DNA of 32,215 nucleotides from Chlorobiota bacterium (GTDB lineage: Bacteria > Bacteroidota > Bacteroidia > Bacteroidales > Marinilabiliaceae): contig JAADEM010000014.1 in NCBI GenBank assembly GCA_013153405.1, positions 1 through 32,215 on the forward strand. Direction: 5' to 3'. Under the pieces are notes generated by a model that was not told where the DNA came from, did no database searches, and saw nothing but the letters and a program-made list of their open reading frames with translations. Below, piece by piece: positions 147 to 9,664 of this stretch. Position 1 is the stretch's first letter. Each line of letters starts with the position of its first letter. The position numbers and the translations under genes were made by a program.

Positions 147-842
147 TTAACTGAACAAATCTTTTTTAACCTTTCCTTTATACGTCTTTCCTATATCAAT
201 CTTTTTCCCGGCAATTTCCACCTTATTCCTATGAATTGATTTTACCTCTTCCTTATTCACAATAAAAGAACGGTGAATACGAATAAATTTCTCCGGAAGA
301 TTGTTCTCCAGTCCTTTAAGCGACATTAAAGCAATAATCTTTTTATTATCTTTCAAGTGAAATGCAACATATTCCTTAAGCCCCTCGATATAAATTATAT
401 CATCATAATACACTTTAATCAGTTTATGTTCGGCCCTGATTACAATATAGTTTTCCCGGTTGTTTACCCCGGCTTTCCTCATAAGAGAAATCTGTTCTGT
501 TGCTTTTTCAACCGCTACGGAGAAACGTTCAAAAGATATGGGTTTAAGAAGATAGTCGATAACGCCAAGAGAATATCCCTGAAGAGCATATTCAGAATAT
601 GCGGTAGTAAAAATAACAACCGGTTTGTTTTCTGTTTTGTGTAACATGTCCACTCCTGTCTGTTCAGGCATCTGAATATCAAGAAACATCAGATCCACAT
701 CTTCGGTACGCAACACTTCCATTGCTTCGGTAGCACCAGAGCATTTTGCTGTCAGCTCGAGTTGAGGAATTCTTTCGATATAATCAGCCAGCAGTGTCCT
801 TGCCAGAAACTCATCATCTACAACTATACACTTTATCTTCAT
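147..842 (-). CDS. LytTR-family response regulator
   Basis: This 231-residue protein is a two-domain response regulator. The N-terminal receiver domain has the acidic pair D9/D10, the phospho-acceptor D55 in LDIQMPE, T79/T80 and the conserved K100 in YLLKP. The C-terminal part (about 130-228) is a LytTR DNA-binding domain, with IRIHRSFIVN as the family signature. In this family the regulator is phosphorylated by a LytS-type kinase and binds pairs of 9-base direct repeats about 21 bases apart. The kinase gene ends only 13 bases upstream, so the two are co-transcribed, kinase first. Inference: its sites are the boxes at 2003-2032 and 2108-2137, which would make it autoregulatory and the regulator of the TonB receptor operon. 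Confidence 0.95.
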   Translation of the reverse strand: MKIKCIVVDDEFLARTLLADYIERIPQLELTAKCSGATEAMEVLRTEDVDLMFLDIQMPEQTGVDMLHKTENKPVVIFTTAYSEYALQGYSLGVIDYLLKPISFERFSVAVEKATEQISLMRKAGVNNRENYIVIRAEHKLIKVYYDDIIYIEGLKEYVAFHLKDNKKIIALMSLKGLENNLPEKFIRIHRSFIVNKEEVKSIHRNKVEIAGKKIDIGKTYKGKVKKDLFS

Positions 843-855
843 ACAATCGGCAAAA

Positions 856-1941
856 TTAATTGTAAATCTTCAAGTCAACTATAAACTCAGTTCCCGTGTC
901 TTTTATCTCAAGTTCATGTTTCCCTTTGTAAAGAAGCTCGAGCCGCCTTTTCACATTTTCCAGACCTATCCCCTGTGTTTTATCTTTCGAAAGTTTTATT
1001 GATGGAATACTATTGGATATATTGAATAATATCTTGTTATCCATGGCCTTAAGCTTTAGCCTGATCCAACCATTACCGGTATCTGTTATCCCCGAGTGCT
1101 TAAAGCTATTCTCTATAAACGGAATAAATAACAGCGGAGGAACCGGTGTGGACTTATCTATTTCTGAAAAATCAATTTCAATATTTTGTGAATATTCGGT
1201 TTTCAGTTTTTGAAGTTCTATAAAATTATTAATGTACAGAACCTCTTTCCCGATAGGGACAAAGTCATCATTACACTCATAAAGCATATATCGTAACATT
1301 TCAGACAACTTCATAAGCATGGCAGGAGCATTCTCCTTTTTCAGCAGCACAAGTGCATAAATATTATTCAGGGCATTGAACAGAAAATGGGGATTTACCT
1401 GAGATTTCAGAAACTTCATTTCCGACAAAAGGTTTTCACTTCTTATTTCAGCCTTTTTCTTCTCTTCTGAAACCTTTTGATAAATCATCTTATAAACAAT
1501 ACTGGCAAGAACAATAGCAAGTAATGATGTGAGGTTACGAACAAGACTCCGCTTTATGAGAAGAATTCCGGGCTGTTTCTGTAAGTTAAATGCATTCTGC
1601 ATCTCCGGACTTAACATCTGGTTTATCCCGGGGCCTCTCATTACCACATCGCCAAAAGGCTTAAGATAAATATCGATATAAAGTATCAGACCTGACGAAA
1701 CCAGCATCAAAACAATAACAGACAAAGCATATGTAATATACTTCTGTTTTTCAAGCAAACGTGGAATAAGCACAATCAGATTAAAGTAAAAAATAGCTGA
1801 GTGAATTACTGTAAGCTCTACAGCTTTGAAAACCGCCTTTCTGAATATTAAAAGATTTGAAAAAAACAGAATCATAAAAATCAGATACAACATCCAGCTG
1901 AAGATGTGAACTGTTTTGACATTAATAAATCTGTTGCTCAT
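856..1941 (-). CDS. LytS/YehU-like sensor histidine kinase
   Basis: This 361-residue membrane kinase belongs to the His_kinase family (PF06580-type). Four hydrophobic segments are visible (about 12-32, 42-60, 68-92 and 127-150). The third extracytoplasmic section (about 92-127) is short and contains three methionines. A coiled-coil linker follows, then the phospho-acceptor motif QVNPHFLFNALNNIYAL with H185. A C-terminal HATPase domain has an N-box around PFIENSFKHS and a glycine box at TQGIGLENVKRRL. There is no separate large sensor domain, so the signal is probably sensed in or at the membrane. It is first in the operon with the LytTR regulator. Its promoter is the TATATTTG at 1967-1974. 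The ligand is unknown. Confidence 0.94.
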   Translation of the reverse strand: MSNRFINVKTVHIFSWMLYLIFMILFFSNLLIFRKAVFKAVELTVIHSAIFYFNLIVLIPRLLEKQKYITYALSVIVLMLVSSGLILYIDIYLKPFGDVVMRGPGINQMLSPEMQNAFNLQKQPGILLIKRSLVRNLTSLLAIVLASIVYKMIYQKVSEEKKKAEIRSENLLSEMKFLKSQVNPHFLFNALNNIYALVLLKKENAPAMLMKLSEMLRYMLYECNDDFVPIGKEVLYINNFIELQKLKTEYSQNIEIDFSEIDKSTPVPPLLFIPFIENSFKHSGITDTGNGWIRLKLKAMDNKILFNISNSIPSIKLSKDKTQGIGLENVKRRLELLYKGKHELEIKDTGTEFIVDLKIYN

Positions 1942-1966: not shown

Positions 1967-1974
1967 CAAATATA
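1967..1974 (-). promoter_or_regulatory. Promoter -7 element of the kinase/regulator operon
   Basis: On the minus strand this reads TATATTTG, a perfect match to the Bacteroidota TAnnTTTG element. It lies 25 bases before the kinase start codon and exactly 28 bases from the nearer of the two repeat boxes (2003-2011). Confidence 0.75.
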
Positions 1975-2002
1975 CGTATATCAGATTACATCATATAAAA
2001 TT

Positions 2003-2032
2003 TTCAACCATAGCCACAAAAACATCAACCAA
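2003..2032 (-). promoter_or_regulatory. Paired LytTR-type binding boxes (minus-facing)
   Basis: Two boxes read on the minus strand: TTGGTTGAT (2024-2032) and ATGGTTGAA (2003-2011). They are direct repeats offset by exactly 21 bases, two helical turns. Each differs by one base from the plus-facing box TTGGTTGAA. The core GTTnA fits the known LytTR consensus and the 21-base spacing fits AgrA/AlgR-type sites. The operator role is inferred. Confidence 0.65.
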
Positions 2033-2107
2033 TGTTCCACTACCTAAAAGCATATAATCTCTTTGTAAACCCGAAAAGTCCTGTACCATTAAGCACAATC
2101 ACTGCCC

Positions 2108-2137
2108 TTGGTTGAATATATCTTCCCTTTGGTTGAA
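2108..2137 (+). promoter_or_regulatory. Paired LytTR-type binding boxes (plus-facing)
   Basis: Two identical boxes TTGGTTGAA (2108-2116 and 2129-2137) lie 21 bases apart, each preceded by a CCCTT-like stretch. They lie 28 bases upstream of the likely -7 element of the TonB receptor gene. That is an activator position just upstream of the -33 region. Confidence 0.68.
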
Positions 2138-2165
2138 ATTATTTCTTTTTATCAATGTACTGCCA

Positions 2166-2173
2166 CATATTTG
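2166..2173 (+). promoter_or_regulatory. Promoter -7 element of the TonB receptor operon
   Basis: CATATTTG is a one-base variant of TAnnTTTG, 23 bases upstream of the receptor start codon. No good -33 TTTG is seen at the expected distance. That fits a promoter that needs an activator bound at 2108-2137. Confidence 0.5.
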
Positions 2174-2196: not shown

Positions 2197-4995
2197 ATGA
2201 ATCTGAGGAAAATAGTGTTTAAAATAACCCCGGCCATTGTGCTGTTTGTTTTAACAGGAATAACCGGAACATTGAAGGCACAGTCTATAAAAGATATTGT
2301 CATTAAAGAACACTATTGGGGAACTCCTCTGAATAAGGTTCTGAAGGATTTTCAGGAAAAGTACGGTTTAAAAATAGAATATGATCCTGAATACACTTCA
2401 CAATTCACTTTTGATGATAAAGGTCGTACCAGCTTCGGCACCTCTGTCGAAAAAGCATTTTATGCTATCTGCCAGGACAATCCTGAACTATCGTTTTATA
2501 TCGATGACAATGAAGTCATACATCTCACAAAAGGTTCAGTACCAACCGGCATGGGTTATTCTCCACCAAAGATAACAGGTACAATACAAAGAAAAAAATC
2601 AGATACAAAGAAAAAAAATCAGCCGCCAAAACCAGAAAGTGCCTTCATAAACAAGAAGTTCACAGGACAACCACAAAAAAAGAACCTGACGATATCAGGT
2701 ATTGTAAAAGACACAGAAACAGGTGAAACACTTTCCTATGCATCGGTTGTTATAAAAGGCACATCAAACGGTACAACTACAAATATTGACGGATATTTCA
2801 CATTATTCAATGTACCTTCCGATACCTCAACACTTGAAATTTCTTACATAGGATACCATAAAGGCATATACTTTCTCAGTCCCGAATCTAATCTTTCAAA
2901 CATAAAAATAAACCTTCAACCAAACTCATCAACACTTGAGGAGGTTACTGTAACTGTACGGAAAGAAAGTTTAATGAAACAGAACTCCAACGAAGTAGGT
3001 GTTGTGAAAATGTCACCACAAAAAATAGCTGAATTACCGGTAATAGGAGAAAAGGACATTTTCCGATCATTCCAGTTATTACCCGGAGTAGCAGGAAGTA
3101 ATGAATCATCATCCGGCTTGTTCGTACTTGGAGGAACTCCGGACCAGAACCTTATTTTATATGATGGTTTTACCGTTTATCACGTCGATCACCTGTTCGG
3201 AATGTTCAGCGCTTTTAATTCAAATGCAATTAAGGATGTACAACTTCACAAAGGAGGATTCGAATCACGTTTCGGCGGACGTATATCAAGTGTGATGGAA
3301 ATAGTAGGAAAAGACGGTAATGAAAAAAACTTCAACCTGGGTGGCGACATTGGGTTTTTAAGTGCCAATATATATACGGAAATTCCGGTTACTGAAAAAC
3401 TGACCGTCTTGCTCGCAGCCAGACGCTCGTGGAAAAGTTTCATATACAACGATATTTTCGACAGTTTCAACGATGCCACCGAACAACCCGTTGCTCAAAC
3501 ACCTTCCGGCAGGCCGGGAGGAGGAATGAGAATGAAAGAAGCAACCACTCCGTCATCATATTTTTACGACCTGAATGCAAAAATTACTTACAAACCTTCG
3601 GATAAAGACAATATATCCTACAGCTTTTTCAACGGCCTGGATGACCTTGACAATTCAAGAGATATAAACAGAGCGAGAAACGGAATGACCATTTCAGGAG
3701 GCACAACCGATATTACAAAATGGGGAAACTGGGGGATGAGCACAACCTGGTCACGCAAATGGAGTGATAAATATTATTCAAATGCATTAATATCTGTATC
3801 CAACTATTTCAGCAACCGCGACCTGTCGATGTCGCGAATAATGAACGGAGTATCAACAACAAAAAGCGCAATAGAAGATAATAACCTGCGTGATTACACC
3901 TTTAAATATGACAATGAACTGAAAATAAACCGCATCAACAATCTTGAATTCGGCCTGCAGGCAACACACCTTACTATTGATTACAACTACACAATGAATG
4001 ACACAACAATAATTCAGGACAGAAATGATAACGGACTTATTATGGCAGGTTACTTTCAGGACAGAATAAACCTTTTCAGTAAGCTGACAATTATTCCAGG
4101 CATTAGGGTGTCGTACTACGATGTTACAGATGAGATGTATTATGAACCAAGAGCTTCAATTCATTATAAACTTTCAAACATGATAAGCATAAAAGGAGCC
4201 TGGGGACATTATTATCAGTTTGCAAACAGAATAATCAGAGAGGATATCTCCACCGGAAGCAAGGATTTCTGGATTTTAAGTGACGGTGACGATGTTCCGG
4301 TAAGCTATGCTGAACATTTCATTGCAGGTGTATCATACGAAACAAAAAATTATCTTTTCGATGTTGAAGCATATTACAAAAACCTGGATGGTCTTTCGGA
4401 ATATTCCCTGCAATACACCCCGTCATTCAACAATGTGGATTACAATGAATTTTTTTATAAAGGAACAGGAACTGCCAAAGGTATAGAGTTCCTTATCCAG
4501 AAAAAATACGGCAAATACACCGGCTGGATAAGCTACACTCTGGGTGAGGTAATGTATAACTTCCCTATTTACGGAGACAAGTCATTTCCCGCAAATCATG
4601 ATGTTACAAATGAATTTAAAACTGTAAACACATTCAGATACAGAAACTGGGTATTTGCCGGCACATGGATATACGGAACAGGAAAACCATATACCGAGCC
4701 TACAGGACAGTATGAGGTTACATTAATCGATGGAAGCACTTCTACATTTATGGATATTGGCCCTAAAAACGGCTCTCGTTATCCCGATTATCACCGGCTT
4801 GATGTATCTGCCACTTTTGAATTTAAACTTGGCAGAACAGGTTTCGGAAGCATTGGCCTGTCCATATTCAATCTTTATAACCGACAGAATGTATGGTATA
4901 AAGAATTTGAATTGTCAGGCGATGACCTCTACGAAACAGATGTTACCCTTTTGGGAATTACCCCAAGCCTGACTTTATCGTTCCGGTTAAGATAA
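2197..4995 (+). CDS. TonB-dependent outer-membrane receptor with STN-like and carboxypeptidase-regulatory-like domains
   Basis: This 932-residue receptor starts with a signal peptide (about 1-28, ending LKAQ). A short STN/secretin-like domain follows (about 32-112). A basic, proline-rich linker leads to a carboxypeptidase-regulatory-like domain (about 165-243, with ISGIVKDTETGETL). The plug (about 255-390) has the LPVIGEKDIFRSFQLLPGV and GGTPDQNLILYDG segments, and the rest is a beta-barrel ending in an aromatic/R strand (SLTLSFRLR). Such receptors import large ligands across the outer membrane using TonB energy. DUF4249 lipoproteins commonly follow this subfamily, and one starts 12 bases downstream. 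An STN domain often signals to a FecR/ECF sigma pair, but none is adjacent; the divergent neighbour is a LytTR system. A glycine-rich GGGMRM loop lies near residue 445. The substrate cannot be told from sequence. Confidence 0.94.
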   Translation: MNLRKIVFKITPAIVLFVLTGITGTLKAQSIKDIVIKEHYWGTPLNKVLKDFQEKYGLKIEYDPEYTSQFTFDDKGRTSFGTSVEKAFYAICQDNPELSFYIDDNEVIHLTKGSVPTGMGYSPPKITGTIQRKKSDTKKKNQPPKPESAFINKKFTGQPQKKNLTISGIVKDTETGETLSYASVVIKGTSNGTTTNIDGYFTLFNVPSDTSTLEISYIGYHKGIYFLSPESNLSNIKINLQPNSSTLEEVTVTVRKESLMKQNSNEVGVVKMSPQKIAELPVIGEKDIFRSFQLLPGVAGSNESSSGLFVLGGTPDQNLILYDGFTVYHVDHLFGMFSAFNSNAIKDVQLHKGGFESRFGGRISSVMEIVGKDGNEKNFNLGGDIGFLSANIYTEIPVTEKLTVLLAARRSWKSFIYNDIFDSFNDATEQPVAQTPSGRPGGGMRMKEATTPSSYFYDLNAKITYKPSDKDNISYSFFNGLDDLDNSRDINRARNGMTISGGTTDITKWGNWGMSTTWSRKWSDKYYSNALISVSNYFSNRDLSMSRIMNGVSTTKSAIEDNNLRDYTFKYDNELKINRINNLEFGLQATHLTIDYNYTMNDTTIIQDRNDNGLIMAGYFQDRINLFSKLTIIPGIRVSYYDVTDEMYYEPRASIHYKLSNMISIKGAWGHYYQFANRIIREDISTGSKDFWILSDGDDVPVSYAEHFIAGVSYETKNYLFDVEAYYKNLDGLSEYSLQYTPSFNNVDYNEFFYKGTGTAKGIEFLIQKKYGKYTGWISYTLGEVMYNFPIYGDKSFPANHDVTNEFKTVNTFRYRNWVFAGTWIYGTGKPYTEPTGQYEVTLIDGSTSTFMDIGPKNGSRYPDYHRLDVSATFEFKLGRTGFGSIGLSIFNLYNRQNVWYKEFELSGDDLYETDVTLLGITPSLTLSFRLR

Positions 4996-5007: not shown

Positions 5008-5856
5008 ATGAATAACATAAAAAACATATTTATTAAATCAGCGGTATTAAACCGGATATTTACATTAGTTATATTTACCCTGTTTATTGCATCCTGCACT
5101 GATGACAACGATTTATCTGTAACTGATACGGTGGTTGTTGAATCATACCTTGTTCCGGGCCTTCCTGTCTCGGTAAAGTTGTCAAGGCTGAAACCCTTTG
5201 TTGAAGACGGAATTGCCGACACCTCTGCTATTGATTCTGCCCGTATATTTATTAATTTTAGTGGTAACGATTTTTTACTCACTCCTGTTGATACCACTCC
5301 GGGAGAATACATTTGTGAAGACACCTCACTTAACATTCTTCCCGAATACACATACGGAATAAGTTTTGAATACAACAACTACATTGTAAGTGCGGAAACC
5401 GTAATACCGGAAAAACCGGAAGGACTTGAGCTCAGCGACATTTATTATTATTACGACCCGTACGGCATACTGCCTGAATATACAGATCCTCTTGACGTTT
5501 ACTGGCTCAATCCTGACGGCAGTAATTACCAGGTTGTTGTTGAATATCTGGATGAAACATACAACCCTATCAATGAATATCTCGATCCCAATAATTACGA
5601 AAGCTACAGAGTTGTTTCTTCCGGAGCATTAAGTACCGATACTTACAGCCTGGCTGCAAGAAAACAACTCGCCTTTTATGGTAATTACAGGCTTATTCTT
5701 TACAAAATAAATGATGAATATGTAAATATCCTGAGTTCAGACCTTTCGCAAAGCACACTAACCATCACCGAACCCATTACAAATATCGATAACGGATTAG
5801 GCATCTTTACCGGAATAAATGCCGATACTATTTATTTTAAAGTAATAAGATTATAA
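5008..5856 (+). CDS. DUF4249-family lipoprotein
   Basis: This is a 282-residue predicted lipoprotein. A hydrophobic signal segment ends in a lipobox with C30 (LFIASC). A beta-rich body follows, with a sequence typical of DUF4249 (TVVVESYLVPGLPVSVKLS near the start and repeated Tyr/Asp-rich strands). Members are nearly always encoded immediately after a SusC-like TonB receptor of this type and are thought to be cell-surface or outer-membrane partners of it; their biochemical role is not established. It starts 12 bases after the receptor stop, so translational coupling or one transcript is likely. The protein is somewhat shorter than many family members, but no frameshift is visible. Confidence 0.82.
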   Translation: MNNIKNIFIKSAVLNRIFTLVIFTLFIASCTDDNDLSVTDTVVVESYLVPGLPVSVKLSRLKPFVEDGIADTSAIDSARIFINFSGNDFLLTPVDTTPGEYICEDTSLNILPEYTYGISFEYNNYIVSAETVIPEKPEGLELSDIYYYYDPYGILPEYTDPLDVYWLNPDGSNYQVVVEYLDETYNPINEYLDPNNYESYRVVSSGALSTDTYSLAARKQLAFYGNYRLILYKINDEYVNILSSDLSQSTLTITEPITNIDNGLGIFTGINADTIYFKVIRL

Positions 5857-5936: not shown

Positions 5937-6758
5937 ATGAAAACTATAAATAAGATTATTAGCGGAACTGTATTATTAGTGGTTATACTAACCGGGTGTG
6001 CAAAACTGCCGACTTATCAGGCAAAATACATAACTGACAAAAAAGAGATACACGAACCTAAGTATTATGACAAAAAGGGTAAAATATCCTACGACATATA
6101 CAATGATGATAAAAATGTGTATGTAAGCATAAAAACAGCCGATTATTACACTCAGGCAAAAATATTGAGATTCGGTCTTACAGTATGGTTCGACGCAAAG
6201 GGCAAAAAGAAAAAAGAAAAAGGAATTGTTTATCCACAAGCTCAACAAAACAAACCGTCATCATCGACAAAAGAAGCCGTAATGGCAATGCAGCGCGGAA
6301 CTCAAAGTCTGGCACAGCTACATAATCTTTTTGAACTGTCTGATAAAAGTATGCTTATCATAGGTATGGAAGGAAAAAACAGTGAAAGAGTTATTTATCC
6401 CGAAAAAGAAAAAAGCGATATAACCGCATCCATAACTTTCGACGACTCAAACTCGTTAAGTTATCTTGCTATAGTTCCCATCGATAAGATATTTACTGGT
6501 GACGAAGCCGGGAATAAAACATTCTCGGTAGGAATTGAACCCGGCTTTTTAGACGTAGGCTCTGCCATGCCGGGAGCCGGAATGAGACATTCAGGAGGCA
6601 TGGGTGGCGGAATGATGGGTGGAGGCATGGGCGGCGGTATGGGAGGTGGCCGGGGAATGAGAGGCGGTGGTATGTCCGGCGGAGGAATGACCTCACTGCG
6701 TTCCACAATGACCGAATCGGTCAAAGTATGGTTTGCTGTTACTCTTACTGACAGTTGA
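5937..6758 (+). CDS. Lipoprotein with a Gly/Met-rich loop
   Basis: This is a 273-residue lipoprotein with a signal peptide and a lipobox ending at C21 (VILTGC). Residues 48-100 look like beta-sandwich strands of a DOMON/CBM9-like fold (AKILRFGLTVWFD). Residues about 208-258 are an extreme low-complexity insert of Gly and Met with Arg, in repeats such as GGGM and GGMGGG. A final strand (SVKVWFAVTLTDS) follows, so the Gly/Met stretch probably forms a loop inside the fold rather than a tail. It lies 80 bases after the DUF4249 gene on the same strand and is probably in the same operon. Metal binding through the methionines is possible but unproven. No specific family is recognised with confidence. 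Confidence 0.85.
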   Translation: MKTINKIISGTVLLVVILTGCAKLPTYQAKYITDKKEIHEPKYYDKKGKISYDIYNDDKNVYVSIKTADYYTQAKILRFGLTVWFDAKGKKKKEKGIVYPQAQQNKPSSSTKEAVMAMQRGTQSLAQLHNLFELSDKSMLIIGMEGKNSERVIYPEKEKSDITASITFDDSNSLSYLAIVPIDKIFTGDEAGNKTFSVGIEPGFLDVGSAMPGAGMRHSGGMGGGMMGGGMGGGMGGGRGMRGGGMSGGGMTSLRSTMTESVKVWFAVTLTDS

Positions 6759-7052: not shown

Positions 7053-8054
7053 ATGAAAACAATAAAGTTTTTATCCATCTTTTTTATATCTGTATTATTG
7101 TTCTCCTGTAGCGGTTCAAACAATGAGATTATTGTGTATACCAGTGTTGATCAGGTTTTTTCCGAACCGGTATTAAAGGATTTTGAGAAAGAGACCGGGA
7201 TTAAGGTAAAGGCAGTTTACGATACAGAAGAGACAAAATCGACAGGAGTACTAAACCGCCTCATAGCCGAGAAAGACAATCCTCAGTGTGATGTTTTCTG
7301 GAGTGGTGATCCGGTAAGAACAATCGTTTTGAAAAACAAAGGTATAACAACCCCCTATCAATCACCGGCAGCAGTAGATATTCCTGCAGTTTACAAAGAC
7401 CCTCAACATCACTGGACTGGTTTTTCAGCAAGAGCCAGAGTTCTTATTTACAACAAAGCATTTTTGCCCGACTCTGTTCCACAATCCATTTTCGATCTTA
7501 CAAAGGAACAGTACAAAGGCAATGTTGCGATAGCTAATCCTCTGTTCGGAACAACCACATTTCATATATCAGCCATCTTTACTGCTCTCGGTGACGAAAA
7601 GGCCAGACAATTTATGACAGACCTGAAAAACAATGATGTGGTAATTGCCTCAAGCAACGGAGATGTAAAAAAACGGGTTTCGAGCGGTGAGATCGCCTGC
7701 GGGCTAACCGATACTGATGATGCCAATGAAGCCATCAAGGAGGGAGCTAATGTAGGTATCGTTTTTCTTGATCAAAACGGCATAGGTACACTCGTTATGC
7801 CCAACACTGTTTGTCTGATCAAAAATTCACCCAATCAGCCGAATGGCAAAAAACTGATAGATTTTCTGCTTAACCGGAAAACAGAAGCCAAGCTTGCTGT
7901 TTCGTGCGCTCAGATGCCGCTTCACAAAGGTGTTAAAGTACCTGAAAGTGTACCGTCGCTTGATAACATAAAGCCAATGAACATAAGCTATGAAAAAACG
8001 GCAAAGAAGCTTGAAGAGATACAAAACTATCTGAAAAACTGGATTGAGAACTGA
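7053..8054 (+). CDS. ABC transporter substrate-binding lipoprotein (ferric/FbpA-like)
   Basis: This is a 333-residue binding protein of the bacterial extracellular solute-binding family that includes ferric-ion proteins such as FbpA/AfuA. The signal peptide ends in a lipobox with C19 (LLFSCSGS), so it is tethered to a membrane facing the periplasm. The first lobe starts with EIIVYTSVDQ and has the typical DVFWSGDP and TGFSARARVLIYN segments. The hinge and second lobe have KGNVAIANPLFGTT and ACGLTDTDDANEA. The permease gene follows after 44 bases. The substrate is probably an oxidised metal or a small anion; ferric iron is inferred from similarity only. No ATP-binding subunit is encoded next to it. 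Confidence 0.88.
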   Translation: MKTIKFLSIFFISVLLFSCSGSNNEIIVYTSVDQVFSEPVLKDFEKETGIKVKAVYDTEETKSTGVLNRLIAEKDNPQCDVFWSGDPVRTIVLKNKGITTPYQSPAAVDIPAVYKDPQHHWTGFSARARVLIYNKAFLPDSVPQSIFDLTKEQYKGNVAIANPLFGTTTFHISAIFTALGDEKARQFMTDLKNNDVVIASSNGDVKKRVSSGEIACGLTDTDDANEAIKEGANVGIVFLDQNGIGTLVMPNTVCLIKNSPNQPNGKKLIDFLLNRKTEAKLAVSCAQMPLHKGVKVPESVPSLDNIKPMNISYEKTAKKLEEIQNYLKNWIEN

Positions 8055-8098
8055 TGTGACAAAGCCGGATATAGAAGACTTTAACACCAAAGATGTAA

Positions 8099-9664
8099 AT
8101 GGGCAAACACAACAAAACCGGGAGATATAACATTTCTGTATCGACAGTGATAAAATGGGCTTTTGTTGTGTTTGTATTTTTACCGCTCGTTTATACCTTC
8201 TTTCTAACTTTTTCGGGAGGAGATAAGTTGCTGGAAAATGTCAGTTTGATGAGTGGCAATACTTTCTTTTTGTTTCTTAAAAGCACCGGAATTGCATTGG
8301 GGGTTGCCACTCTTTCAACAATAACCGGAACAGCTCTTGGTTTCTTGCTGTATAAAACAAAAATACCTTTCAGTGGATTTTTAAAGCTTACAGTGTTGAT
8401 CCCTTTGTTTCTGTCGCCGTACATACTTGCTGTGGCCTGGAGAGATGCATTTTTTATGTTTTTTGGCAACACCGGTATTATTTCTTCCACTTTGGGTGTC
8501 ATACTTGTTCTGACTACCATTTATACGCCATTATCGATGCTGATAACGGGAAATGCAATGGCAAAAATTGATTCAAGTATTGAGGAGAGCGGAGTGCTGC
8601 TAACCACTTACAGCAGAATGTTTTTCAGGATAATAATTCCATTGATAAAACCTGCTTTACTAAGCTCACTAGTTCTGATTTTCATTTTCAGTATTTCAGA
8701 ATTCTCTGTTCCTGCATTTTTCGGTGTTAAAGTTTTTACAACGGAGATATTCACTCAGTTTTCTGCTTTCTACAACCATTCGCTTGCCATATTGCAGTCG
8801 TCGGTTCTGATTATCATTTGCATTGCTTTGCTGATTGCCGAAAGAAGATACCTATCAGAAGCTCCGTTTTTTTCGATAGGTGTACAAGGCGTAAAAACAC
8901 GATTGTATGACAACCGAAAACATCATTATCCCTTGTTTCTATTTCCGTTTATTTGGATTATCATCTCTGTTGTTTTTCCTTTTATTGTTCTTTTGGTTCA
9001 GTCAGCTGATGGTGGTACTTATTTTTTAACTCAGGCACTAAAGCTATTAAGCACCGGCTTTGCTCCATCTTTTATTCTGGCTTTTGCCGGAGCTTTTATT
9101 ATTCTTGTCATATCATTTTTTGCCGGCACAGAAAGGAATAACAGAAAATGGTTCGACTTTATTCTGCTTATACCATTTGCAACACCATCCATAATTGTGG
9201 GAATTAGCTTAATAAAATTCTACAATCACTCTGCTCTAAACTTTATTTACTCTTCATTTGCAATAATATTGATAGGGTATGTTGCTAAATTTACTTTTAT
9301 TGCTGAAAAGCTTATTTCAAATTCTGTACGCCAGATTCCTGCCTCTTTTGATGAAGCAGCACGGGTAGCGGGCATTTCTGTCTTTTCCCGTTTTCGTTAT
9401 ATTCTGATTCCTTTGATACTTCCTTCAATATTTGCCTCTTACATTATCAGTTTTATTTTTATAATAGGTGAGCTGGGAACTACTATTATGGTTTATCCTC
9501 CCGGTACGGAGATTATGCCCATTAAAGCATATACCATAATGGCAAATTCACCCCAACAACTTACAAGCTCAATGTCATTGATAATATTAACAGTAACTCT
9601 GTCATTAACCGTATTGTTTTATATGATCGGCAAAAAGCTGATGAACAGATTTTCATACCGGTAA
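8099..9664 (+). CDS. ABC transporter permease, fused two-domain FbpB-like
   Basis: This is a 521-residue inner-membrane protein with about twelve hydrophobic segments forming two homologous permease halves. Each half has an EAA loop for contact with the ATPase: EESGVLLTTYSRMFF...IPLIKPAL (about 162-187) and DEAARVAGISVF...ILIPLILP (about 418-442). The duplication and length fit FbpB/ThiP-type iron or thiamine permeases. It follows the binding-protein gene and should transport its ligand from periplasm to cytoplasm. The ATPase partner is missing from the neighbourhood and must be supplied from elsewhere in the genome. Confidence 0.92.
   Translation: MGKHNKTGRYNISVSTVIKWAFVVFVFLPLVYTFFLTFSGGDKLLENVSLMSGNTFFLFLKSTGIALGVATLSTITGTALGFLLYKTKIPFSGFLKLTVLIPLFLSPYILAVAWRDAFFMFFGNTGIISSTLGVILVLTTIYTPLSMLITGNAMAKIDSSIEESGVLLTTYSRMFFRIIIPLIKPALLSSLVLIFIFSISEFSVPAFFGVKVFTTEIFTQFSAFYNHSLAILQSSVLIIICIALLIAERRYLSEAPFFSIGVQGVKTRLYDNRKHHYPLFLFPFIWIIISVVFPFIVLLVQSADGGTYFLTQALKLLSTGFAPSFILAFAGAFIILVISFFAGTERNNRKWFDFILLIPFATPSIIVGISLIKFYNHSALNFIYSSFAIILIGYVAKFTFIAEKLISNSVRQIPASFDEAARVAGISVFSRFRYILIPLILPSIFASYIISFIFIIGELGTTIMVYPPGTEIMPIKAYTIMANSPQQLTSSMSLIILTVTLSLTVLFYMIGKKLMNRFSYR

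Follow-up and report, generated by a model that had tools for sequence, protein, structure and literature searches.

Four 9-bp boxes in the intergenic region at the start of the window (the whole stretch of DNA analyzed here, 32,215 nucleotides) are, with high probability, two operators of a LytTR response regulator (gene at 147-842), which would activate its own operon and, in parallel, the divergent receptor-DUF4249-P5 operon. This reading, made from the DNA sequence, draws on the geometry of the boxes, on their conservation in a congener, and on the recurrence of the same spacing at other LytTR loci.

A LytTR two-component locus with two mirrored box pairs

The genes and predicted regulatory elements of the locus are as follows:

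147-842, minus strand: LytTR response regulator, 231 aa, with a receiver and a LytTR DNA-binding domain
856-1941, minus strand: LytS-type sensor kinase of the His_kinase family (Pfam PF06580, 2.6e-23), first gene of the regulator operon
1967-1974, minus strand: -7 element of the kinase/regulator promoter, TATATTTG, a perfect TAnnTTTG
2003-2011, minus strand: predicted LytTR box, proximal, kinase side, ATGGTTGAA
2024-2032, minus strand: predicted LytTR box, distal, kinase side, TTGGTTGAT
2108-2116, plus strand: predicted LytTR box, distal, receptor side, TTGGTTGAA
2129-2137, plus strand: predicted LytTR box, proximal, receptor side, TTGGTTGAA
2166-2173, plus strand: -7-like element of the receptor promoter, CATATTTG, with one mismatch to TAnnTTTG
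2197-4995, plus strand: TonB-dependent receptor of 932 aa (Pfam domains: CarboxypepD_reg-like, Plug)
5008-5856, plus strand: DUF4249 protein (Pfam PF14054, 1.9e-12)
5937-6758, plus strand: P5, Met/Gly-rich, without a known protein family

The kinase and regulator genes lie on the same strand, separated by 13 bp, in a putative operon, and the combination of a receiver-LytTR regulator with a PF06580 kinase identifies the pair as a two-component system of the LytTR/LytS type. The regulator matches the Pfam families Response_reg (1e-18) and LytTR (PF04397; 4.2e-17, 62.6 bits), and its LytTR domain matches the AgrA structures 3bs1, 4g4k, and 4xyq (2.5e-6). It scores under the NCBIfam cut-offs for the BtsR, LytR, and AgrA equivalogs, the best being BtsR (125 bits vs 246). 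The TonB receptor, which falls under the NCBIfam SusC/RagA cut-off (TIGR04056; 72.5 bits vs 368), is the probable regulated target. The DUF4249 gene is probably co-transcribed with it, and P5 is the probable final gene of the receptor operon.

At E 0.001, P5 has no match in Pfam or NCBIfam, its one Pfam match being at chance level (E 0.09); by eye the protein is lipoprotein-like, and our guess is that its Met-rich tail might bind metal. Receptor residues from about 30 to 115 form an extra N-terminal domain ahead of CarboxypepD_reg, which matches FecR_C weakly (E 0.1) and by eye resembles STN signalling domains. A scan of 11 window genes found no match to FecR or a sigma factor, so the LytTR system may fill the role that FecR and a sigma factor have elsewhere. 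Past the module, 7053-9664 encodes a fused ABC permease together with an extracellular solute-binding protein; they come nearest to 2-aminoethylphosphonate transporters, yet score far under the NCBIfam cut-off.

The gap between the kinase-regulator and receptor operons measures 255 bp. Within it, each pair of 9-bp boxes is a direct repeat with a period of 21 and a 12-nt spacer; the two pairs point away from each other, and on both sides 28 bp separate the end of the proximal box from the -7-like element. The original prediction had described these boxes, their coordinates, the period, and the 28-bp distances, and a re-check against the sequence found every position right to the base. The four boxes share 48 of 54 pairwise identities, and the distance between the two operators is about 76 bp (2032 to 2108). 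The kinase -7 element ends 25 bp ahead of the kinase ORF start (1941), and the receptor -7-like element ends 23 bp ahead of the ATG at 2197. The classic LytTR consensus has a GTTnA core, which the window boxes share.

This arrangement agrees with the operators of known LytTR regulators. Published LytTR sites are described as repeats of 9-11 nt with spacers of 11-13 nt and no common consensus (PMC4847170), and the 9-nt repeats and 12-nt spacers of the window fall within these ranges. A LytTR-domain regulator is encoded at the locus itself, and both pairs lie just upstream of the predicted core promoter. If transcription starts a few bases past the -7 element, simple arithmetic centers each pair at about -57; AgrA repeats are reported to center near -60 (PMC4227749), and LytTR repeats placed just upstream of a core promoter are reported to mediate autoactivation (PMC6193735). 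From the AgrA-like domain, the published site layout, and the centering near -57, we infer that the regulator binds both operators and activates both promoters.

We therefore propose a mechanism in which TTGRTTGAA, directly repeated, forms each operator. Since the period of 21 corresponds to two helical turns, a pair of LytTR domains would bind head-to-tail along the same face of the DNA. The bound pair would sit upstream of the core promoter, where a distance of 27-29 bp to the -7 element would let the protein recruit the Bacteroidota RNA polymerase. Kinase signalling in response to a presumed signal would yield phosphorylated regulator, which would occupy each operator as a head-to-tail pair and activate transcription from the presumed starts. 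Switching on the kinase-regulator operon would provide positive feedback, and the divergent receptor-DUF4249-P5 operon, with its presumed cargo, would be switched on in parallel.

The same sites could instead serve to repress either promoter or both, or a DNA loop could join the two pairs, so that the promoters are switched oppositely. Operators about 76 bp apart could interact, and for AgrA, repression of bsaA through a site located downstream of its promoter has been reported (PMC4227749). In the window, however, each operator is located upstream of its -7 element, clear of the core promoter and of the start. The published LytTR parallels considered here that are located upstream of promoters are activating (PMC6193735), and the same gap and phase are seen at further LytTR loci, which is what activator sites would show (see below). 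We thus consider repression or looping improbable.

The same layout in a congener and at other LytTR loci

The nearest regulator relative among the genomes searched is encoded in G002, a member of the same genus (66% identity); two further congeners, G001 and G003, contain no regulator as close as that of G002. The G002 locus comprises the five genes in unchanged order, with 79% identity for the receptor, 59% for the DUF4249 protein, 55% for P5, and 59% for the kinase, and the intergenic DNA around the boxes has diverged. Its receptor promoter reads TTCGTTGAA-N12-TTGGTTGAA-N28-CATTTTTG, with the lag of 21 and the gap of 28 intact, and its kinase promoter reads CTCGTTGAA-N28-TAGATTTG, the position of the distal box falling inside a run of N. 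Absence of the boxes from orthologous gaps had been named as a result that would speak against the original prediction. In the one close orthologue found, that of G002, they are kept: as the full pair on the receptor side, and on the kinase side as the proximal box, the distal one being hidden by the N gap.

Comparable arrangements are found at distant loci in which the two operons stand head-to-head. In L285, from another class, the kinase side reads TTGGTTGAA-N12-TTGATTGAA-N28-TATTTTTG and the receptor side TTGGTTGAA-N28-GAGTTTTG with a degenerate distal box. L210 carries ATGGTTGAA-N29-TATTTTTG and TTGATTGAA-N28-TACATTTG, with degenerate distal boxes on both sides. At L216 and L219, a same-strand series of barrel protein (a family assignment tested for L216 alone), P5-like protein, receptor, and DUF4249 protein stands opposite the kinase; boxes are present on both sides, with gaps of 28 (barrel side) and 29 (kinase side), and the kinase-side -7 element is TACTTTTA, which has one mismatch and lies 72 bp (L216) or 160 bp (L219) from the kinase boundary. 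A Saprospiraceae locus (L092) has TTCATG-based pairs on both sides with a gap of 28, their common register having been read by eye, and a Cyclobacteriaceae locus with another divergent gene (L083) has a pair on each side and -7-like elements with two mismatches. At L212, where a regulator gene faces the receptor, neither inspection nor scoring found boxes. In the regulator tree, a grouping of the head-to-head regulators as a single clade is at best tentative (support 63/73).

On the sides of L210, L285, L216, L219, and L083, between 0 and 2 of 500 shuffles score as high as the actual sequence. Scored with TTGGTTGAA, the two sides of L092 are equalled by 37 and 4 of 500 shuffles; the boxes of this locus read differently, and because their sequence differs, we did not judge it by the TTGGTTGAA score. 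The kinase-side score of L162 was discarded, as the promoter had been truncated by the chosen boundary and N stands in place of the distal box; the geometry of this locus was read separately. Other lags equal or beat 21 on three sides because the proximal box carries the score there: on the kinase side of L210, lag 17 scores 13 vs 12 for lag 21, and another lag ties with 21 on the receptor side of L285 and the non-kinase side of L083. Gaps of 27-29 were allowed in the head-to-head searches (26-29 in one), so the figure of 28 is not fully independent of that choice.

We further analyzed kinase promoters at LytTR loci in general, using a rule free of box sequence: a 9-mer that recurs at lag 21 with at least 7/9 identity and is followed, after 27-29 bp, by a perfect TAnnTTTG. 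The sample comprised 134 other upstream regions, with the window and the congener excluded. Of these, 99 came from a first set (138 loci, 105 usable regions, 101 after deduplication, and 99 without window and congener) and 35 from a replication set fetched once the rule was fixed (40 loci, 38 regions, 35 new). The kinase taken at each locus was the best match to the window kinase, which is not always the established partner of the regulator. The rule is met in 13 of the 134 regions, compared with a mean of 0.37 and a maximum of 2 in 200 shuffles that keep the -7 elements, and with 0-3 loci at other lags. The replication set by itself yields 3 of 35. In the first set, lag 21 is ahead of other lags and gaps, and when the -7 element is ignored, it occurs in nine loci vs at most five for any other lag. 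One genus (g12) accounts for six of the 13 passing regions, L090 is closely related to L103, and the repeat at L128 looks coincidental, which leaves about six to eight independent cases.

Of the 134 regions, 59 have any TAnnTTTG close to the start. In an alignment of 58 promoters, TTGA shows phasing at the proximal position (10 and 4 at the best phases) as well as at the distal one (9 and 3), vs 0-3 elsewhere. Compared with the window, this phase is mostly shifted by one base towards the -7 element, so the true gap is 27-29. The predicted spacing of exactly 28 bases thus holds for both operators of the window and widens to 27-29 at other LytTR loci. Similarly, the proposal of a motif for this LytTR subfamily stands for TTGRTTGAA in the lineage of the window and does not extend to other regulators, whose boxes differ (TTCATGAAT, TTCGTTCAA). 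A search of the 58 aligned promoters for a -33 element found no enriched TTTG, a result compatible with activator-dependent promoters but short of proof.

The composite pattern RTTGA-N16-RTTGAA-N28-TAnnTTTG has 16 exact sites in 119 genomes, including the kinase-side site of the window, vs 3 for the backward pattern; 12 of the 15 non-window sites lie outside open frames of more than 100 codons. One precedes a LytTR-locus kinase (L231) that is 40% identical to the window kinase. In three genomes of genus g3 (L234, L235, and L236), the composite lies ahead of a conserved 81-84-aa protein, PqqD-type by eye, and in two genomes of genus g6 (L240 and L241), it precedes a gene whose product we take to be a MoxR-like ATPase. 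The latter sites suggest a LytTR regulon with a quite different function. The site at L230 resembles a simple repeat. Some composite sites elsewhere are probably targets of paralogous LytTR regulators.

That several composite sites in relatives precede genes without an obvious tie to a LytTR kinase could also mean that another transcription factor binds the repeats and merely controls the regulator and receptor operons. Against this, the same lag and gap occur before LytTR-locus kinases phylum-wide while the box sequence changes by locus, and at L092 the boxes have changed in step on both sides. The geometry is, moreover, the one published for LytTR sites (PMC4847170). A different factor is accordingly very unlikely, even more so than repression by the LytTR regulator.

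Regarding the link between LytTR regulators and the receptor module, a LytTR regulator and kinase occur in the fetched flanks of at least 16 of 44 receptor-family loci, in varied orders and orientations, and DUF4249 in those of at least 34; both counts are minima because flank lengths differ. Weaker relatives of P5 were found in 7 of 27 receptor loci. P5 accompanies the receptor/DUF4249/LytTR module at several distant loci, where it sits between regulator and receptor (L205, L211) or between barrel protein and receptor (L216 and L219, the latter at L219:7752-8654). The TonB transporter-DUF4249 pair BT2172/BT2173 has been reported to act together (PMC11003636). When the repeat rule was applied before receptor genes, it gave no clear excess at linked loci, with 2 of 15 linked vs 3 of 29 others at one -7 mismatch and 1 of 15 vs 0 of 29 at a perfect -7 (L300 is counted among the 29, though linked by the later count). 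The case for direct control of the receptor therefore comes from the window together with the congener and the remaining head-to-head loci. The boxes in G002, the distant head-to-head loci, and the recurring lag and gap support the original prediction that the regulator controls both promoters; that this control is activation, we infer.

Rarity of the arrangement in its own genome

Boxes with up to one mismatch number 14 in the window vs 17.9 expected; a lone box is uninformative, and the arrangement is what is special. Under a loose rule for mirrored pairs (any lag of 12-35, any gap of 15-45, boxes 7/9 alike), a like pair arises in 19 of 4,000 dinucleotide shuffles of the intergenic gap, whereas the likeness observed in the four boxes is reached in 0 of 20,000, which bears out the original view that such a double coincidence is unlikely by chance. 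With the boxes also kept in the congener amid diverged surroundings and the lag and gap recurring elsewhere, an origin as chance repeats in AT-rich intergenic DNA is negligible, the expected frequency of single boxes and the 19 loose matches notwithstanding.

The original prediction had proposed scanning the genome for paired boxes beside TAnnTTTG. In the 3.78-Mb genome, GTTGA-N16-GTTGA-N29-TAnnTTTG with 0-1 mismatch recovers solely the two window sites. With RTTGA cores, one mismatch adds a single site (C55:11697-11759), and zero mismatches with spacings relaxed by 1-2 bp again leave solely these two, vs one match for the backward control. A count of the paired core without the -7 element (GGTTGA-N15-GGTTGA, up to one mismatch; 50 in the genome vs 5 in the control) was set aside, the backward control being unfair if the core is frequent in coding sequence. 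As GTTGA is probably recurrent in coding DNA, we used the composite with the -7 element in place of this count.

Scans at up to two mismatches were left uninterpreted. At this threshold, the GTTGA composite has nine genome sites including the two in the window, vs 10 for the backward control, and the RTTGA composite gives 37 vs 27 in the own genome, 21 vs 17 in G002, 15 vs 3 in G247, and 36 vs 11 in G390. Part of the G390 matches are simple ATTGAAC repeats; in this genome (L307), ATTGAACATTGAAC simple repeats at several positions imitate the composite pattern. In G247, the sole exact match with flexible spacing (control, 2) lies outside its head-to-head locus, where the distal boxes are degenerate. 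A loose form of the rule also matches four further places within the 32-kb window. The intergenic region has no match among phage records.

Relation to known LytTR systems and significance

The operator type is already known, including the LRS-like repeats of Bacteroides; its use here is new. Like the AgrA and YpdB operators, the window has two 9-bp direct repeats with a 12-bp spacer upstream of a core promoter, with a LytTR gene alongside. It differs from them in the TAnnTTTG -7 element that takes the place of -35/-10, in the TonB receptor as target, and in the box TTGRTTGAA. The agr P2/P3 region of Staphylococcus is similar in that a single intergenic region provides each of two promoters with LytTR repeats, and one of these promoters belongs to the regulator's own operon. 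The target of P3 is a regulatory RNA, whereas that of the window is a probable uptake operon, and the promoter class differs as well.

LRS systems combine a LytTR regulator lacking a receiver with a membrane protein in place of a kinase. The window system falls outside this definition, since its regulator has a receiver and its partner is a histidine kinase. It nevertheless resembles the LRS and the Bacteroides LRS-like operons in placing the repeats just upstream of its own promoter, which in the Bacteroides operons uses TATCTTTG (PMC6193735). The latter are described with 11-bp repeats and an 11-bp spacer, located 11 bp upstream of TGTA-19-TATCTTTG (PMC6193735). Summing these spacings gives a period of 22 and 34 bp to the -7 element, compared with 21 and 27-29 for the window. 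In the same account, autoactivation is shown for HdrRM and presumed for the Bacteroides LRS-like operons (PMC6193735). The BT2172/BT2173 pair shares with the window a TonB receptor gene beside a DUF4249 gene, and the portion of its description considered here names no LytTR regulator or P5-like protein (PMC11003636).

Relatives of the regulator at E 1e-30 or better are encoded, at least one per genome, in 108 of the 119 genomes searched, including that of the window, and an open-access literature search found no binding motif or target for LytTR two-component regulators of Bacteroidota, the Bacteroides LRS-like operons coming closest (PMC6193735). What is new here is a defined box and spacing rule, seen in part of the phylum's LytTR-locus promoters, and a specific predicted link from one LytTR regulator to the receptor-DUF4249-P5 module. 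The former opens the way to regulon prediction, and the latter ties a sensor kinase to a receptor-DUF4249 module. In a more general reading, which we hold to be somewhat likelier than its opposite, Bacteroidota LytTR two-component regulators would use a fixed code (a period of 21 and a proximal box 27-29 bp from TAnnTTTG) in which the box letters vary, and one branch would command itself together with a TonB receptor-DUF4249-Met/Gly-rich uptake module. If this is true, the regulon of an orphan LytTR system would be readable from its spatial code alone.
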